Below, piece by piece: positions 35,748 through 46,569 of a stretch of 64,000 nucleotides of DNA. Source of the stretch: Myxococcota bacterium (GTDB lineage: Bacteria; Myxococcota; JAJVIH01). Each line of letters starts with the position of its first letter. The first letter of the stretch is position 1. Made by a program: the position numbers and the translations under genes. The stretch spans positions 41,464 to 105,463 of the forward strand of contig JAJVIH010000050.1 in the NCBI GenBank assembly GCA_022072125.1, given 5' to 3'. The notes below the pieces were generated by a model. That model was not told the origin of the DNA and ran no database searches. It saw nothing but the letters and a program-made list of their open reading frames with translations.

Positions 35748-36320
35748 TTATTGGCCTGCGTTTTCTGGCGTGCAATTGCCGGGCCAGCGGTTTGGACCGG
35801 TGGCTTTCAGCAGGCCGACACAGGATTCGTTCATGCGCCCCACCATGAAAGATTCCCGTTTGCCGCCGGGGCACATGACAGCCAACGAATAGTGTTGTTG
35901 ATCACCTTTGGTTTCATAATGAATGGGAGAATATTTAATGCCAGTGAAAAAATAATCGTCTTGTGGGTTTTTAATTGATTCGCCGTGCCATGGCATGGAA
36001 AAACAAAACGAACCGGCTTTTTCCATGGTCCATATCTCTCGGTTCATCTTGAGCACGTGACCACTCGACCAGCGGATAACGGTTTCATCTCGAGTGGTGG
36101 ATGCCGTGCAGGCTCCCGTCACCACGCCACAGGGCTCGTTCAGCTTGGTCAGGCAGGACTGGTTGGCTTCCAGCACCTGCTGGCATTCCGGCCTGAAAAA
36201 CAGCACATGCGATGCTTGTTCTGGCATGAGAGGGTCAGGATCAATGATGAGTTCATCCTCGCATGACACCAAGCCCATCCCCATCATCAGCAGGACCGCA
36301 GCCGTCCACAATGAGTTCAT
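35748..36320 (-). CDS. Small Cys-containing lipoprotein
   Basis: MNSLWTAAVLLMMGMGLVSCEDEL lipobox; ATG overlaps the S8 protease stop (ATGA); related in layout to the frameshifted lipoprotein downstream. Confidence 0.75.
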   Translation of the reverse strand: MNSLWTAAVLLMMGMGLVSCEDELIIDPDPLMPEQASHVLFFRPECQQVLEANQSCLTKLNEPCGVVTGACTASTTRDETVIRWSSGHVLKMNREIWTMEKAGSFCFSMPWHGESIKNPQDDYFFTGIKYSPIHYETKGDQQHYSLAVMCPGGKRESFMVGRMNESCVGLLKATGPNRWPGNCTPENAGQ

Positions 36321-38674
36321 TTTGTGCTCCATGCGATGGCGACACGAATATCCCTGGACGTCAGGCCGTATTGGGTCACCACTGCCTGACAAGTATAATT
36401 GCCGAGCAGATTGCTTTTTGAATCAATATATATTCCCTCGGAGTTGCCGGTAAAGTTGCGTGATCCGAATATTATAAAGCTCTTATGTGCATGTTTTGTC
36501 TCGCAAAGAAAAAATAAATCCAGATCAGCGTGATTTTCCTTTTCACACCCTGTGACATCTCCGGGAGTGCAAATGGGAGTGATTTCCCATGCCATGACCA
36601 CCCTGATTTGACCGGTGGGGGCGGGTTGAATGGGGATGTTCAGATTCATGGCCCGCAGACCCAACTCATTCGTTGTGTCCCAAAACTTGTCCCGGCGGAA
36701 ATCCGAGGGCCTGATGATGCTTTCTTCCCAACCATTTTCGCGGGGTTGTTGAGGGTTCAATCTTCCCCCACGTGGTCCCCGGATCAAATCCAGGGCACTC
36801 CGTACATTTAAAAAGCCGTAACCAGCATGATGATCCAGATTTTGCAATTTGACATCATCAAGGTTAATTCCCATCCATGGTGGAGGACTGTTTATGATTT
36901 TACCCACCTCGGGCAAAATCGGACCGTCCCATGGCAATGGAAAGGCAAACACCCGATCCATGAAAATATCACCGTTACCTCCTAAACTCATCCAGTATGT
37001 GCCCATGTGGTCAGCGGACGCGAAGAGGATTGCCTGGGCCAAATGAGGTCGTTGGATGATGTGTGGTTCAATGGCCATTATTCTTGCCACCGCGCTGGTT
37101 ACAAAAGGTGCCGAGAGACTTGTACCACTCTCTAATACACGTTCCAGCGGCTCATTATCCCCCGGAACTTCCACGTCTTGTCCACGCGCCATGAGATGGG
37201 GCATTTCCATGAGTCTGCCGAATGATCGTTGGTTGCTGATCGAGGAAAAATCGGCCCGCCCAGCTTGTTTGTAGCTAAATTCACGTATGTGGAGTGGTTT
37301 TGGTGTGGCGCCGACAACGAAACCATTGTACAGGCTATGGCTGACAAACGCCTCATGGTCCCGAAAACATTTCAGATGCCCTTCTTGGCCATCATCGGGG
37401 TTGATGACATCCGCAAAAGTATCGATCCGCGAGCATCTGCCCTGGTTTCCGGCGGAGGCGACCCAGACATGTCCGCTTATTGTAGCGAGATAGTCGGCAT
37501 ACCGGTCTATCACGCTGCGCGTGAAACGCTCATCCACGTATTCCTCGTAACGATCCTGGCCGTCGTCATCGCGGTCCCATTCAAACGCGAGTCCAAAAGA
37601 CATATTGCTTACCTGATATCTGGCCAGCGGCATTAAATAGGTCAAGCCCTGGTCGCCAAAACCACCATCTTTTAATTTAAACCATCCCAGCTTGGCGCCG
37701 GGAGCTCCACCACGGGCGCTCATACCACTTGCGGGGCCGTTCCGGATAATTGAACTGACTTTGACAACATGGGCTGCTTCACATGGATCATCGAGTGAAA
37801 CATATTCATCGGGACCCAACCCGTAGTTCCCGATCCATGCGGGACCACGCCCACATGGTTCCACTACGGCAATATTGATGCCTTGCCCCCCCACGCTACT
37901 TGAAGGAAATTTATGATGAATAAACAAATCAGAAGAAAGCAAAGAGGGCTTGTCATCATCATGGTTGTGAGTTTCAACCCCTCCACTTTCTCCATCATAT
38001 ATCACCTCTATTTTACCGAGAGCCTTGTTCCGCAGGGCGACAAAATCATTGGCCGGCAGAGTCACTTCAATCATCGGGCCAAATATCTTTTTCACTTGGG
38101 CATAGGAATCCTCATTGATATCGAGTCGGTCAAGCACCACGCTCTGCTCGGCAAGCCATGCGGAGGCCAATTGCTCGATGGTGGCGCCCGCCGCCTTCAT
38201 CGCGAAATAGTTCTCGGGGGCGTACAGCCACAGGATCATCCTCACCGGGTCGGCGCCCTTGCCCTCGGCGATCATCCGCGCCACCCGCGACTCCAGCGAG
38301 GGCTGGACAAACCACGGCGCCTCGCTGTCGGCGCGCACGGGCGCCGGGGCCTGGAATTTTTTCGGCACCACCGACCCCTCCGGAAATCCCTCTTCCAGCG
38401 GAATCAGCAACCGCACGCCCTCGTTCTCGGCGTACAGGGCGTATCCCCTGGGGACGCCCCCGCCGGAAACGCCGCCATCGCGGCCGCCCGCCACGCCGCC
38501 CTGGCCCTGGCGGACATCGTTGTTCGTGGTGGAATTGTTCGTGGAGGTACAGTTGCCGCCCGAACACGAGGTGCTGGTGTTCGTGATCGTGATCGGCGGC
38601 ATGGAGGTCTGACATCCCGCCAGCATGTGGCTTGCCAGCGCCATGACCGTGATGGTGAGGGATTTCGCGTTCAT
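36317..38674 (-). CDS. Lipoprotein-anchored subtilisin-like (S8) serine protease
   Basis: Lipobox MALASHMLAGCQTS; oxyanion region VWVASAGNQG; catalytic Ser motif ESGTSLSAPFVTSAVA; His region CEAAHVVKVSSII; C-terminal beta-rich domain. Confidence 0.85.
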   Translation of the reverse strand: MNAKSLTITVMALASHMLAGCQTSMPPITITNTSTSCSGGNCTSTNNSTTNNDVRQGQGGVAGGRDGGVSGGGVPRGYALYAENEGVRLLIPLEEGFPEGSVVPKKFQAPAPVRADSEAPWFVQPSLESRVARMIAEGKGADPVRMILWLYAPENYFAMKAAGATIEQLASAWLAEQSVVLDRLDINEDSYAQVKKIFGPMIEVTLPANDFVALRNKALGKIEVIYDGESGGVETHNHDDDKPSLLSSDLFIHHKFPSSSVGGQGINIAVVEPCGRGPAWIGNYGLGPDEYVSLDDPCEAAHVVKVSSIIRNGPASGMSARGGAPGAKLGWFKLKDGGFGDQGLTYLMPLARYQVSNMSFGLAFEWDRDDDGQDRYEEYVDERFTRSVIDRYADYLATISGHVWVASAGNQGRCSRIDTFADVINPDDGQEGHLKCFRDHEAFVSHSLYNGFVVGATPKPLHIREFSYKQAGRADFSSISNQRSFGRLMEMPHLMARGQDVEVPGDNEPLERVLESGTSLSAPFVTSAVARIMAIEPHIIQRPHLAQAILFASADHMGTYWMSLGGNGDIFMDRVFAFPLPWDGPILPEVGKIINSPPPWMGINLDDVKLQNLDHHAGYGFLNVRSALDLIRGPRGGRLNPQQPRENGWEESIIRPSDFRRDKFWDTTNELGLRAMNLNIPIQPAPTGQIRVVMAWEITPICTPGDVTGCEKENHADLDLFFLCETKHAHKSFIIFGSRNFTGNSEGIYIDSKSNLLGNYTCQAVVTQYGLTSRDIRVAIAWSTK

Positions 38675-38709: not shown

Positions 38710-40312
38710 TCAGGGGGTGAACTCCAGTTTCCACGCCGTGCCGAAGGCTTCCGGCGCGCCGATGGGCAGGGTCGAGCCCACCATCCAGAAGGCGGCGGAG
38801 CTGGTTGTCGTGGGGGGCGGGGGAGCGAGCATGGTTCCCCACACGCCGCGCACCGAGGTCTTGCTCAGCAGGTATTTGTTGTCGGTGGTGTCGGCGTCCA
38901 GCTTTTGAAACACCGGGGCGGCGGCGGCGAAATCCGCCCAGGCCACCATGCCGTTGTCGCCCGCCACCAGGACCGGACGCTTGTTTCCGGCCACCGCGCC
39001 AAACACGCCGCGCAGATGCCCCGCCCCCGTGACGGGGCCGCTCAGGTTCGCCCATGAGGAGGTGTTCTTGCGCGCCAGGGTTCCGCTTTCGCCCACCACG
39101 ACGATATCGGCCGATGGGTTGGGCGCCGCGAACCAGACCCCATGCAGGTGGGGCGAGGCGGAGTTGGTTCCGCGTTGCACCACGAAGGCTGGAGCGCCCA
39201 GGCCGGAATCGCGGGTGAAGGTGGTTCCGGCTCCGTCGGTGGAGATCAGCACCTCCCCGGATTCGCCCACCGCCACCACGGTGATGGGGGAAGCGGTGGC
39301 GGAGTTGTCCTTCACCATGGCGTGAATGGCGTAAATCTCGCGCGCATCCGCCGGAAGGGTGGCGGAGGTGATCGTGCCGCCGCCGCCGGCCACCTCGTGG
39401 TAGCGGGTGATTTTCACGCCGTTGACGGCGGATTTGACGGCCCACCACACAAAGCGCTCGTCCAGTCCGGTGGCGTTTTTGCGGACCACCGCGGTGACAT
39501 CGTACGCGCGGGAGTTGGCGTCCGCGCCGTCACCCAGACCGGAGAGGACCCAGGGGCTGGCCAGCGGAGCGGTTTTGGGCAGGTGATATTTGCGTTTGTA
39601 GGTGGGGGTGGAGGCCGGAATGGCGTCGTGGCCGGTGGAGCGGGCGGTGATGCCAGTGCCCAGGCCATCCAGCCCCACGGCGGCGAAGACCGATTCATCG
39701 TTCAGGTGGAAGCCGTGGATATCGGGATCGGTGAGAGAGGGAATGGGGTTGTCCATGTTCCCCAGGTGACCCGTGCGCAGGCTGATGATGCGGTGGGCGT
39801 TGCCAGCGGTGGCGACCATGGGGGCTTCCCCGCCGATGTTCACGCCGTACACGGCGTTGAGCGGCGTGATATCGGCCACTCCGGCGGTTTCCAGATCGCC
39901 GTTCATCAGCATGAGGGGACCCACGCCGGGGCCGCTTCCGGCATCGGCGCCGGTGTCCGGCGTGACGTCTCCGAAGCCGCCGTCCGCGGGGCTGGTGTCG
40001 CCCGAACCGTTGTCGCCGGGAAAAACATCGGAGGCGCCGGCGTCGCGCGGGGGCCGGGGCTCGAAGGGGTCGGGCAGTTCGGGAAACTCGACGCCTTCCC
40101 CAGCGGCGGCGGCCTGGGTTTGTCCGGTGGTATTGCTGGTGGTGGTGGAGTTGCTCGCCGTGCAGTCGCCATCGGAGCACGAGGTGCTCATGTTGGTGAT
40201 GGTGATGGGCGGCAGGGAAGCCTGACATCCGGCGAGCAGAAACAGGCCGGTCAGCGCGGCGGTCAGTCTACGGTTGGCATGGCCTTTGCTGGGGGGGGGG
40301 TAGGTGGCGCAT
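38710..40312 (-). CDS. Propeller-like secreted lipoprotein; 5' end out of frame because of a C10 tract
   Basis: The body is open from 40191 to 38710. The lipoprotein signal (RRLTAALTGLFLLAGCQASLPPITITNMSTSCSDGDC) is encoded upstream with no in-frame ATG/GTG/TTG. ATG 40312, with AAAGGA 7 nt upstream, joins that frame if the C10 tract is read as C9. The propeller call is based on repeated blades with GES/GEV/GDN turns. Confidence 0.7.
40291..40300 (-). repeat. Homopolymeric C10 tract (G10 on + strand) 10 nt inside the apparent start codon
   Basis: Sequence ...tttgct gggggggggg taggtggcgcat... on the + strand. Confidence 0.9.
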
Positions 40313-40613
40313 GGTCAATCCTTTTTAGGCTCTGGGGGAGTCGCCGGTTTGCGCTCGATACTGCCTGATTCATCGCAATGGTGCCTAAATGCGCAGCCAC
40401 TGTCAAGGGATTTTTTTCTTCGCTCAAACCTGAACGTGTTGTGTCTTCCCCGCGCGATCGGGATTGGCGCGGCATTGGCGCCGCCAGCGTGAATGCATGG
40501 GGAATTTGACGCTGGAGCCGCGTTCCCCGCGCGGCGGCGCGGAGGGGAATCGTCCGGAAGCGCGTTGTTGGACGATGCGGGGAGCGGCGCGCGTGATCAG
40601 CGCCGGGGGGTGA

Positions 40614-43384: not shown

Positions 43385-44506
43385 TTATGGGAGAAACTGC
43401 CCGGGGTTGGCGATTTTGGCGGGCAGGTACTCGTCAATCACGAAATTCAGGCCCCATTTGGCCAGCGCCTGCTGCTCCGCGCGGACGCCCATGTTGATCA
43501 GGTCCTCCATGGCGTCAGCCCATTTTTTGTGGACATGGAAAAAGGGGTCGTTCTTGAGGGCGTCGCGGGCGCGCTTGATATCCACGTCCTTGAGCGGATG
43601 GGTGGGCAGTTTGTAACGCCTGATGTCCTCCGGGGTCACGCCCAGGTAGCGGGCCTGGGGCACGCAGAAAAACTGGTTGATATGCGCGGCGTTTCCGGAG
43701 CCCACCTTGAGGGTGCGGTAGATATTGGAGATTCCGTAGGGATCGCAGTCCACGAAGGCGTAGACGGGGATTTTCATTTCATCGCTGAGGCGGCGGACGA
43801 ACCGGCGGCATGCGCGGGAAGGCACGCCGCCCATGCCGATGATGATGCAGTTCATCTTCTTCCAGAACTTGTGATACTGGAGACGGTCGAATACGCCGCC
43901 GGTTTCAATCGCCAGAATGAATTTCGCGCTGGTTTTGAACCCCAGGTGGTCCACCCGCTTGGGAATGGAATAGGCGCCGGAGCCGAAGCGCGTGCAGTCA
44001 ATCTCGATGGTTTCTCCGGTTTCGCGGTCGCGATCATACACGATCAGTTCGCCGCCGACGGCGCCGCCGTGCTCCTCGGGCAGAAAACGCAGTTCCTCGC
44101 GCGAGACGCCATGCAGGGAGAACATCGCCTCGATGTCGTCCATCACGGTGTCGGATTCGTCCTGCTCGTGAAACATCGCCTCGCCCCAGTTCTTGGACTG
44201 GTAATAGGCGTCCCGCTTGGTGGCGAAGTCGTTGGTGACCACCAGTTCCTTCGACAGCGCCATCATGCGCAGGGTCTGGGCGAAGGTCTTGACGGTGTTG
44301 ACGGTGAGCGTGCGCTGTTTCTTGTGGCGGCCCATTTCAAAGTAGCCGCGCCTGGTGTCGTATTTGACGTTCTGCAGGCTGCGCACCGGAAAATCCATGA
44401 CCGGCTTCGAGAGCCTGTTGATCTTGTCATAGACCTGCCGCGCCACCTTCTCGATGCTCTCGATGGTGATCTGATCCAGCTTGCTGTTGATGGTGACTTC
44501 CGACAT
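43385..44506 (-). CDS. top6A: DNA topoisomerase VI subunit A (Spo11-like)
   Basis: Catalytic region ATKRDAYYQSKNW; Toprim acidic motifs ILAIETGGVF and VYAFVDCDPYGISNIYRTLKVGS. Confidence 0.95.
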   Translation of the reverse strand: MSEVTINSKLDQITIESIEKVARQVYDKINRLSKPVMDFPVRSLQNVKYDTRRGYFEMGRHKKQRTLTVNTVKTFAQTLRMMALSKELVVTNDFATKRDAYYQSKNWGEAMFHEQDESDTVMDDIEAMFSLHGVSREELRFLPEEHGGAVGGELIVYDRDRETGETIEIDCTRFGSGAYSIPKRVDHLGFKTSAKFILAIETGGVFDRLQYHKFWKKMNCIIIGMGGVPSRACRRFVRRLSDEMKIPVYAFVDCDPYGISNIYRTLKVGSGNAAHINQFFCVPQARYLGVTPEDIRRYKLPTHPLKDVDIKRARDALKNDPFFHVHKKWADAMEDLINMGVRAEQQALAKWGLNFVIDEYLPAKIANPGQFLP

Positions 44507-44523
44507 GGCGTCTGACCCCGGGG

Positions 44524-46569
44524 CTACATTTTGCGGGAGCGCGACAACACCTCGTGCAGGTTTTCCTCGGTGCGTTCGCGTTCCGGTTTGCCCAGCTTGA
44601 GGATTTGCTCCAGCGACTCGCCGATATGCGGGATGTACTTCTCGATGTACCCGCGCTTTTTCATTTCGTCGGCCATGCGCCGCTGCTTGCGCAGGTAGAT
44701 GCCCAACTCCCGCCCGCATTCCTGCATGGCGAGCTTCATTTCCTTGATGATTTCCGGATAGTGCGCGATCGCCTCTTTCGATTCGCTGGTGAAAGGCACC
44801 CACACGCTGGCGATATGCACCGCCAGGGTTAGCGGCCCGGATGGCAAGGCGCCCTTGCTCTGCTGCAACTGGTAGTTCTTCCACGCCACCTGAACGGCGC
44901 TTTTGTACACGGCGCAGGCGCTCTGCTGATAGAGCAGGGGGACCCGGTTCGCGAACCGCACAAGCTGGATCAGTTCATCGGCCGGCTGTTCGCCGCCGTA
45001 AGCCAACGCCACCTCCACCAGGAACGGATTGCCCCGGTACACCGAGGGCGGGCGCGTGCGCGCGGTGTAAAAATCCGCCTTGACCTGCTGCCTCAGTCCC
45101 GCCATCAACTGCTCCTCGCCGATGGGCGAGAGGCAGTTGGTGGGCGGCGCCATCAATTTGGTTTTGTTGATGGCCTGGTAGAGCGCCTCGGCGCCCTCCC
45201 GCCGCACCTTCTTCGGTTGCGAATCGGGGGAGACGCCGGCGGCCTTGCAGATCTCCTCCGCCGCCCGCGGGCTGACGCGCGAGAAATCATTGGACAGGAA
45301 GCCCCGCATGTTGCGGGCGTCGGTGCTCTCCAGCTTTTTGATCAGGATGCCGAGTTCGACGCCGTGCGGATGGGGTTTGATCTCCCGGGCTTCCGGCGGA
45401 AGCTCATTCGCCGCGCGTTCATACTCAAAGGTCTCGCCGCGCGGATTCCGGTAGCTGAAGCGGGCGTGGGGATTGGCGATGGCCGTCTGCTCCACATAAC
45501 CTTCGACCGATTGCCTGCCGCCGCGATAGAGCCCCTGCAATTCGATGGACACCCGGGTGCCGTGGGGAATGGGTTTGGCGAGCAGGTCCTCGCCGTCCTT
45601 CCACTCGATGGTCTCGTCCTTGAGGATGACCGGGTTGTTTTTCACCATGTCCATCTGGACCACGAAATGGTGCGCGGGCTGTTTGTCGCCGGTGCGGCTG
45701 ACGACATCCACCGGCTGGCCGGTGGTGAGCTGGCCGTACATGCCGGCCGCGGAAATGCCGATGCCCTGTTGCCCACGCGACTGCTTGAGGCGGTGAAATT
45801 TCGACCCATACAGCAGCTTGCCGAAAATCTTGGGGATCTGCTGCCGCACGATGCCCGGGCCATTGTCGGTGACGGTGATGCGGAAGCGATCCTCCGCCGC
45901 CCCGGGATCAATTTCGATTTTGATGCTGGGCAGGATGCCCGCTTCCTCGCAGGCGTCCAACGAGTTGTCCACCGCTTCCTTGACGGTGGTGAGCAGCGAT
46001 TTGATGGGGTTGTCGAAGCCCAGCAAATGCCGGTTCTTGGTGAAAAATTCGGAGATGGAAATCTCGCGCTGGTTGGCCGCCATCTCGTGGGCGGTCACGC
46101 GCTTGCGGGCGCCTTTCACCGGTTTGGGCGGAGCGGCCTGCTCCAACTCCTCTTGGGCGGGGGGAGCGGTCCGGGTCCGCTTGGGGGCGTCCGCGGGTTT
46201 TGATCCCGGTGCGGCGTCCGCGGGGGAGGGCGGTTTGCCTTTCCCGCGCGCGGTTTTGGCGGGAGCCTCCGCGGCTTTTTCCCGGGCTGGTGGTTTGGAA
46301 ATGGATTTTCCGGGCTTGCCGGCTCCCTTGCTTTCCGCTTTCCCAGGCCGGTCAGGCGCGGCGGCCTTGCCGTTTTTCGCCGGCGCCTTGCCGCTGGCGG
46401 GCTTGGCCGGCGGGGCTTTGGCGCTCGCGGGGGCGCTTTTGCCGCGCGCGGCGGCGCGGGAGGTCTCGCCCGCCGGTTCGCCAAACAGCGAAAGGGTCGC
46501 GGCGTCCGCGGGGTTGCGCCCGCGGGCTTCCGCCGCGGGGCCGGAATCTTGCTGCTCCACCGGATTCAT
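44524..46569 (-). CDS. top6B: DNA topoisomerase VI subunit B (GHKL ATPase) with Lys/Ala/Pro-rich N-terminal extension
   Basis: SISEFFTKNRHLLGFDNPIKSLLTTVKEAVDNSLDACEEAGILPSIKIEI; VTDNGPGIVRQQIPKIFGKLLYGSKFHRLKQSRGQQGIGISAAGMYGQLTTG; 17-nt gap to top6A. Confidence 0.96.
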   Translation of the reverse strand: MNPVEQQDSGPAAEARGRNPADAATLSLFGEPAGETSRAAARGKSAPASAKAPPAKPASGKAPAKNGKAAAPDRPGKAESKGAGKPGKSISKPPAREKAAEAPAKTARGKGKPPSPADAAPGSKPADAPKRTRTAPPAQEELEQAAPPKPVKGARKRVTAHEMAANQREISISEFFTKNRHLLGFDNPIKSLLTTVKEAVDNSLDACEEAGILPSIKIEIDPGAAEDRFRITVTDNGPGIVRQQIPKIFGKLLYGSKFHRLKQSRGQQGIGISAAGMYGQLTTGQPVDVVSRTGDKQPAHHFVVQMDMVKNNPVILKDETIEWKDGEDLLAKPIPHGTRVSIELQGLYRGGRQSVEGYVEQTAIANPHARFSYRNPRGETFEYERAANELPPEAREIKPHPHGVELGILIKKLESTDARNMRGFLSNDFSRVSPRAAEEICKAAGVSPDSQPKKVRREGAEALYQAINKTKLMAPPTNCLSPIGEEQLMAGLRQQVKADFYTARTRPPSVYRGNPFLVEVALAYGGEQPADELIQLVRFANRVPLLYQQSACAVYKSAVQVAWKNYQLQQSKGALPSGPLTLAVHIASVWVPFTSESKEAIAHYPEIIKEMKLAMQECGRELGIYLRKQRRMADEMKKRGYIEKYIPHIGESLEQILKLGKPERERTEENLHEVLSRSRKM

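Follow-up and report, generated by a model that had tools for sequence, protein, structure and literature searches.

We analyzed a 64,000-nucleotide (nt) stretch of contig JAJVIH010000050.1 from a Myxococcota bacterium (assembly GCA_022072125.1; 3.97 megabases in 78 contigs), hereafter the window, and focused on a minus-strand lipoprotein gene in which a run of ten cytosines (C10) separates the start codon from the rest of the gene. Unless another location is named, coordinates are window positions and the features lie on the minus strand. The region upstream of the gene holds TTGACA, a -35-like element (40401..40406), and, after a 17-nt spacer, the -10-like hexamer CACCAT (40378-40383); both are consensus matches only and are not meant to imply activity. 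A Shine-Dalgarno-like motif, AAAAAGGA (40319..40326), precedes the ATG start codon (40310..40312), and the tract occupies 40291..40300. When the sequence was re-read, the ATG and the C10 were found where the first-pass annotation had placed them, and the ribosome-binding motif that it reported was also present, with a spacer of 6 nt rather than 7. The body frame (38710..40290) carries the rest of the signal, the lipobox Cys codon TGT (40225-40227), the linker and the mature part, with its stop at 38710. By inspection, the lipoprotein signal, RRLTAALTGLFLLAGC, has a basic n-region, a hydrophobic stretch and a lipobox ending in Cys, after which the product continues with a PPITITN...CSDGDC linker and a mature protein of ~490 residues. 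The body is open over 519 codons and has a coding score of 0.375 per codon, compared with 0.38-0.46 for housekeeping genes of the window. No match to the mature body was found in Pfam or NCBIfam, and a single-sequence AlphaFold2 model of the body was uninformative (predicted local distance difference test score, 34). The next gene (36317..38674) encodes an S8 subtilase lipoprotein (Peptidase_S8, E 4.9e-15) with the same N-terminal linker; it starts at an ordinary ATG, carries no tract and is the probable operon partner of the window gene.

As deposited, the frame from the ATG reads MRHLPPPQQRPCQP*, a 14-codon product closed by a TAG (40268..40270). Immediately ahead of the tract a TGA closes the body frame, and no ATG, GTG or TTG occurs in that frame before the lipobox Cys, in agreement with the first-pass annotation. 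Frame arithmetic over tract lengths from C8 to C13 gave a single 533-codon frame from the ATG to the stop at 38710 with C9 and a 534-codon frame with C12; C8, C11 and C13 led to a stop after 15-16 codons. Together with the same computation for two paralogs (C5-C11), this indicates that tract length would set the ON or OFF state through the reading frame. The earlier statements that C9 or C12 joins the ATG to the body, and that the deposited window gene is OFF from its ATG, were thus borne out by the arithmetic.

Seven N-termini of the lipoprotein family were identified in the genome, and two of them, paralogs A (ATG at L017:6558) and B (ATG at L017:4148), share a 5' cassette with the window gene. 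Both lie on contig C44, and the window gene lies on C11. The common cassette consists of TTGACA, a Shine-Dalgarno motif, ATGCGCC (identical in all three), C8-C10, AGCAA and the lipoprotein signal. Within A and B the order is TTGACA, the Shine-Dalgarno motif (GGAGG at the equivalent spot), CCATGCGCC, C8, AGCAA, the signal and a PPIT(I/L)(T/N)N...C linker. The tracts lie at C11:81754-81763, C44:4129-4136 and C44:6540-6547. The tract is 11-12 nt past the A of the ATG in each case, and its length differs between these homologous copies (C10 in the window gene, C8 in A, C8 in B), which are paralogs within one genome and not strains. Their ON-form N-termini would be homologous, MRHLPPPSKGHAN and MRRVPPPSKVRAS (MRHLPPPSK and MRRVPPPSK). 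Between the window gene and A, 23/26 positions of the tract block are identical (88%), compared with ~60% in the flanks (61/101 upstream and 94/155 downstream; binomial P ~0.002). A and B are ~95% identical past the tract, and the sole coding indel over their shared part is at the tract. The body of A is open for ~407 codons, with a low coding score, and, as with the window gene, the gene after B encodes an S8-type lipoprotein and has an ordinary start. A pattern search of the genome returned no true cassettes beyond these three, and within the genome ordinary starts were found only among S8-peptidase and MKTMLLL-type relatives.

At none of the three tracts, as assembled, is the ATG in frame with what follows, and the phases differ: the C10 of the window gene and the C8 of A need one C fewer, and the C8 of B needs one more. 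The window gene, A and B would accordingly be OFF at the ATG as assembled, although A may use a GTG next to its ATG, which is in frame (GTG-TCC-CCC-CCC-AGC). This GTG is what speaks for translation starting elsewhere, at the GTG in A and at a CTG or other non-standard codon in the window gene, with the ATG and C tract being merely leader. We consider such a start extremely improbable, as there is no ATG, GTG or TTG in the window gene or ahead of the signal in B, and the Shine-Dalgarno motif in A is suitably spaced from the ATG (6 nt) but not from the GTG (13 nt). It was also noted that on C44 a region of ~330 base pairs, comprising terminator, promoter, poly-C leader, signal and linker, occurs twice (L017:3900-4270 and L017:6310-6680) at ~95% identity, with unrelated mature proteins behind the two copies.

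We then assessed selection on the sequence that the ATG does not reach. Past the tract, A and B differ by 10 substitutions in 237 nt, eight of them synonymous and two nonsynonymous, giving a ratio of nonsynonymous to synonymous substitution rates (dN/dS) of 0.074 (P=0.012, with the same changes placed at random). Their upstream noncoding sequence differs at 9/98 sites; synonymous change is thus close to neutral, and amino-acid replacement is suppressed. Although the numbers are small, the low dN/dS suggests that the frame unreachable from the ATG has been read as protein since the A/B duplication. Selection on out-of-frame sequence in A and B could also reflect constitutive low-level expression, in which RNA polymerase slippage, or +1 ribosomal slippage on CCC-C, would operate whatever the tract length; long C runs are generally slippery. 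The variation in tract length instead favors slippage of DNA, and we regard constitutive slippage as very unlikely. A programmed frameshift in one direction was rejected, because B needs one base more and the window gene and A one fewer.

The tract was also placed against a census of C/G runs. The genome contains 115 runs of at least 8 and 16 of at least 10, fewer than the ~470 and ~45 expected from a first-order Markov model, and the C10 is the sole C/G run of at least 9 in the window. Because the genome has many such runs, even below expectation, a lone C10 beside a start codon is unremarkable; what exceeds chance is the occurrence of two paralogs with a tract at the same position. Frame continuity was checked at all 115 runs of at least 8 by means of a codon model for which the window served as the training set. 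Depending on the threshold, 23-27 runs were intragenic, with no change of frame across the run. Among these were in-frame C10 runs in two genes and in a third whose translation, judged by eye, is sigma-factor-like. No true frameshift was found. Two candidate frameshifts were rejected: L069 proved to be the boundary of a pilin gene and L116 the start of rbfA, with ATG-C9-AAG in frame (both genes named by eye from translation). The rbfA run (L116:878-886) is itself a frame-sensitive C9, lying in a housekeeping gene directly behind its start codon. A genome-wide phasome was rejected as well, with C/G runs below expectation and no run outside the cassette found to break a gene frame.

This census bears on homopolymer error in the assembly, which the first-pass annotation had named as the main alternative and under which the real tract would be C9 and the gene simply ON. 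A single-base error would be enough, and most sequencers have their greatest difficulty with long C/G runs. However, none of the 23-27 intragenic runs of at least 8, C10 runs included, was a true frameshift, and general homopolymer miscounting in the assembly is therefore rare. All three cassettes are out of frame, compared with 0/23 intragenic runs (Fisher P ~4e-4, treating three related cassettes as independent). A miscount would need errors at three loci, in differing directions and at two tracts of only C8, and it would be a coincidence for all three to fall within a single cassette family. The error explanation is thus made quite unlikely by the census.

The explanation that we favor, with modest confidence, is slipped-strand translational phase variation through the poly-C tract in a 5' cassette common to a small lipoprotein family. 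Transcription would begin, and the ribosome would bind, upstream of the tract; the ribosome would then initiate at the conserved ATG and translate MRHLPPP. With C9 or C12, translation would run on into the lipoprotein signal (ON), and with C10 or C11 it would end after ~15 codons (OFF), so that expression would be set by tract length modulo 3. Tract length would change reversibly in living cells, and the product would presumably be lipidated and located at the surface, where its switching might, for example, vary surface targets. The candidate phase-variable switch originally proposed is strengthened by two paralogs that have the poly-C cassette at other lengths and by purifying selection on out-of-frame coding sequence, whereas broken members of the family speak for possible decay.

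Several observations weigh against phase variation. Reversible length change is inferred from one assembly, and no ON copy is present among the three assembled loci, although three OFF copies have a probability of ~0.3 under a random three-phase state and are unsurprising. C/G tracts are not in excess in the genome, the GTG beside the ATG of A may allow that copy to be read, the dN/dS is based on only 10 substitutions, and the Fisher comparison counts related cassettes as independent. Finally, the body of B contains a second frameshift near L017:2520, and two relatives on contig C64 are damaged. At L018:3706-4194, an MKTMLLL-type cassette is joined, in the wrong frame, to the C-terminal portion of an S8 lipoprotein whose catalytic region is missing, and at L018:2262-2573 another MKTMLLL-type cassette ends after ~42 residues. 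Given B and these two relatives, decay and recombination are active in the family, and a loss by slippage could be permanent.

These same defects, together with the mosaic structure of the copies and their position near contig ends (C44, C64), would fit the main rival explanation, a decaying multicopy family in which the leader of a duplicated cassette has inherited an indel-prone poly-C stretch and the copies have been permanently inactivated through slippage, deletion and recombination. Such decay is harder to reconcile with the open bodies of the window gene and A, with a window gene that scores like housekeeping genes (A's score is low, though), with an A/B dN/dS of 0.07 and with a tract block that is more conserved than its flanks. 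Overall, we consider decay to be a somewhat unlikely account of the three cassettes.

Phase variation of this kind was then compared with described systems. Most known homopolymer switches come from host-adapted bacteria. Poly-G/C tracts of at least 8 act as gene switches in C. jejuni (PMC6321876), and the 5' region is where such tracts typically sit (PMC2823697). The cassette resembles poly-G/C phase variation in Campylobacter and Helicobacter (PMC6321876, PMC2823697) in having a C/G run of at least 8 between the start codon and the body, a frame determined by length modulo 3, an early stop when OFF and a surface-type product. It differs in that the host genome is GC-rich with C/G tracts below expectation, that the tract lies inside a duplicated promoter-signal cassette before unrelated bodies, and that switching here is deduced from sequence. 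A literature search for poly-G/C-type switches in Myxococcota found none. With two related genes carrying the run at the same place but in different lengths, the three cassettes probably form a small group of slippage-driven on/off switches. Vpma-type families of mycoplasmas share 5' regions and differ in their mature parts, and they switch by DNA recombination, whereas the present cassette has a homopolymer in the leader. By analogy, the mycoplasma Vpma-type lipoproteins (PMC2268961) are alike in forming a lipoprotein family with switching expression.

A further, more tentative possibility is that the 5' cassette as a whole (terminator, promoter, ATG, poly-C switch, signal and Cys-pair linker) is mobile or duplicating and has spread before unrelated mature domains. 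This would yield independently switched surface lipoproteins in a deep-branching lineage in which such switches are apparently undescribed. If true, a conserved poly-C switch cassette in a GC-rich genome would indicate that contingency loci are of use in other lifestyles too, against phages or predators for instance. Automated annotation drops or shortens such genes; with C10, the start is missed or set at the internal ATG at 40191, and the signal peptide is lost. Protein and profile searches of 58 and 195 genomes of the phylum recovered no ortholog, with only marginal matches outside the own genome (E 0.004-0.009), and two scans of GTDB contigs returned no homolog.

Additional features were noted elsewhere in the genome. 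The longest run is a G15 on contig C5 (L025:1483-1497), which is intergenic, upstream of a kinase-like reading frame and within AT-richer DNA. The start of the same contig (L024:1-500) carries an array resembling clustered regularly interspaced short palindromic repeats (CRISPR), with repeats like GTTCACCCCCACGTGCGTGGGGACAAC, located at the contig end and with a C10 in one spacer. Within the window, adjacent minus-strand frames at 43385-46569 resemble the A and B subunits of DNA topoisomerase VI (by eye, from translations), an enzyme that is unusual in bacteria.
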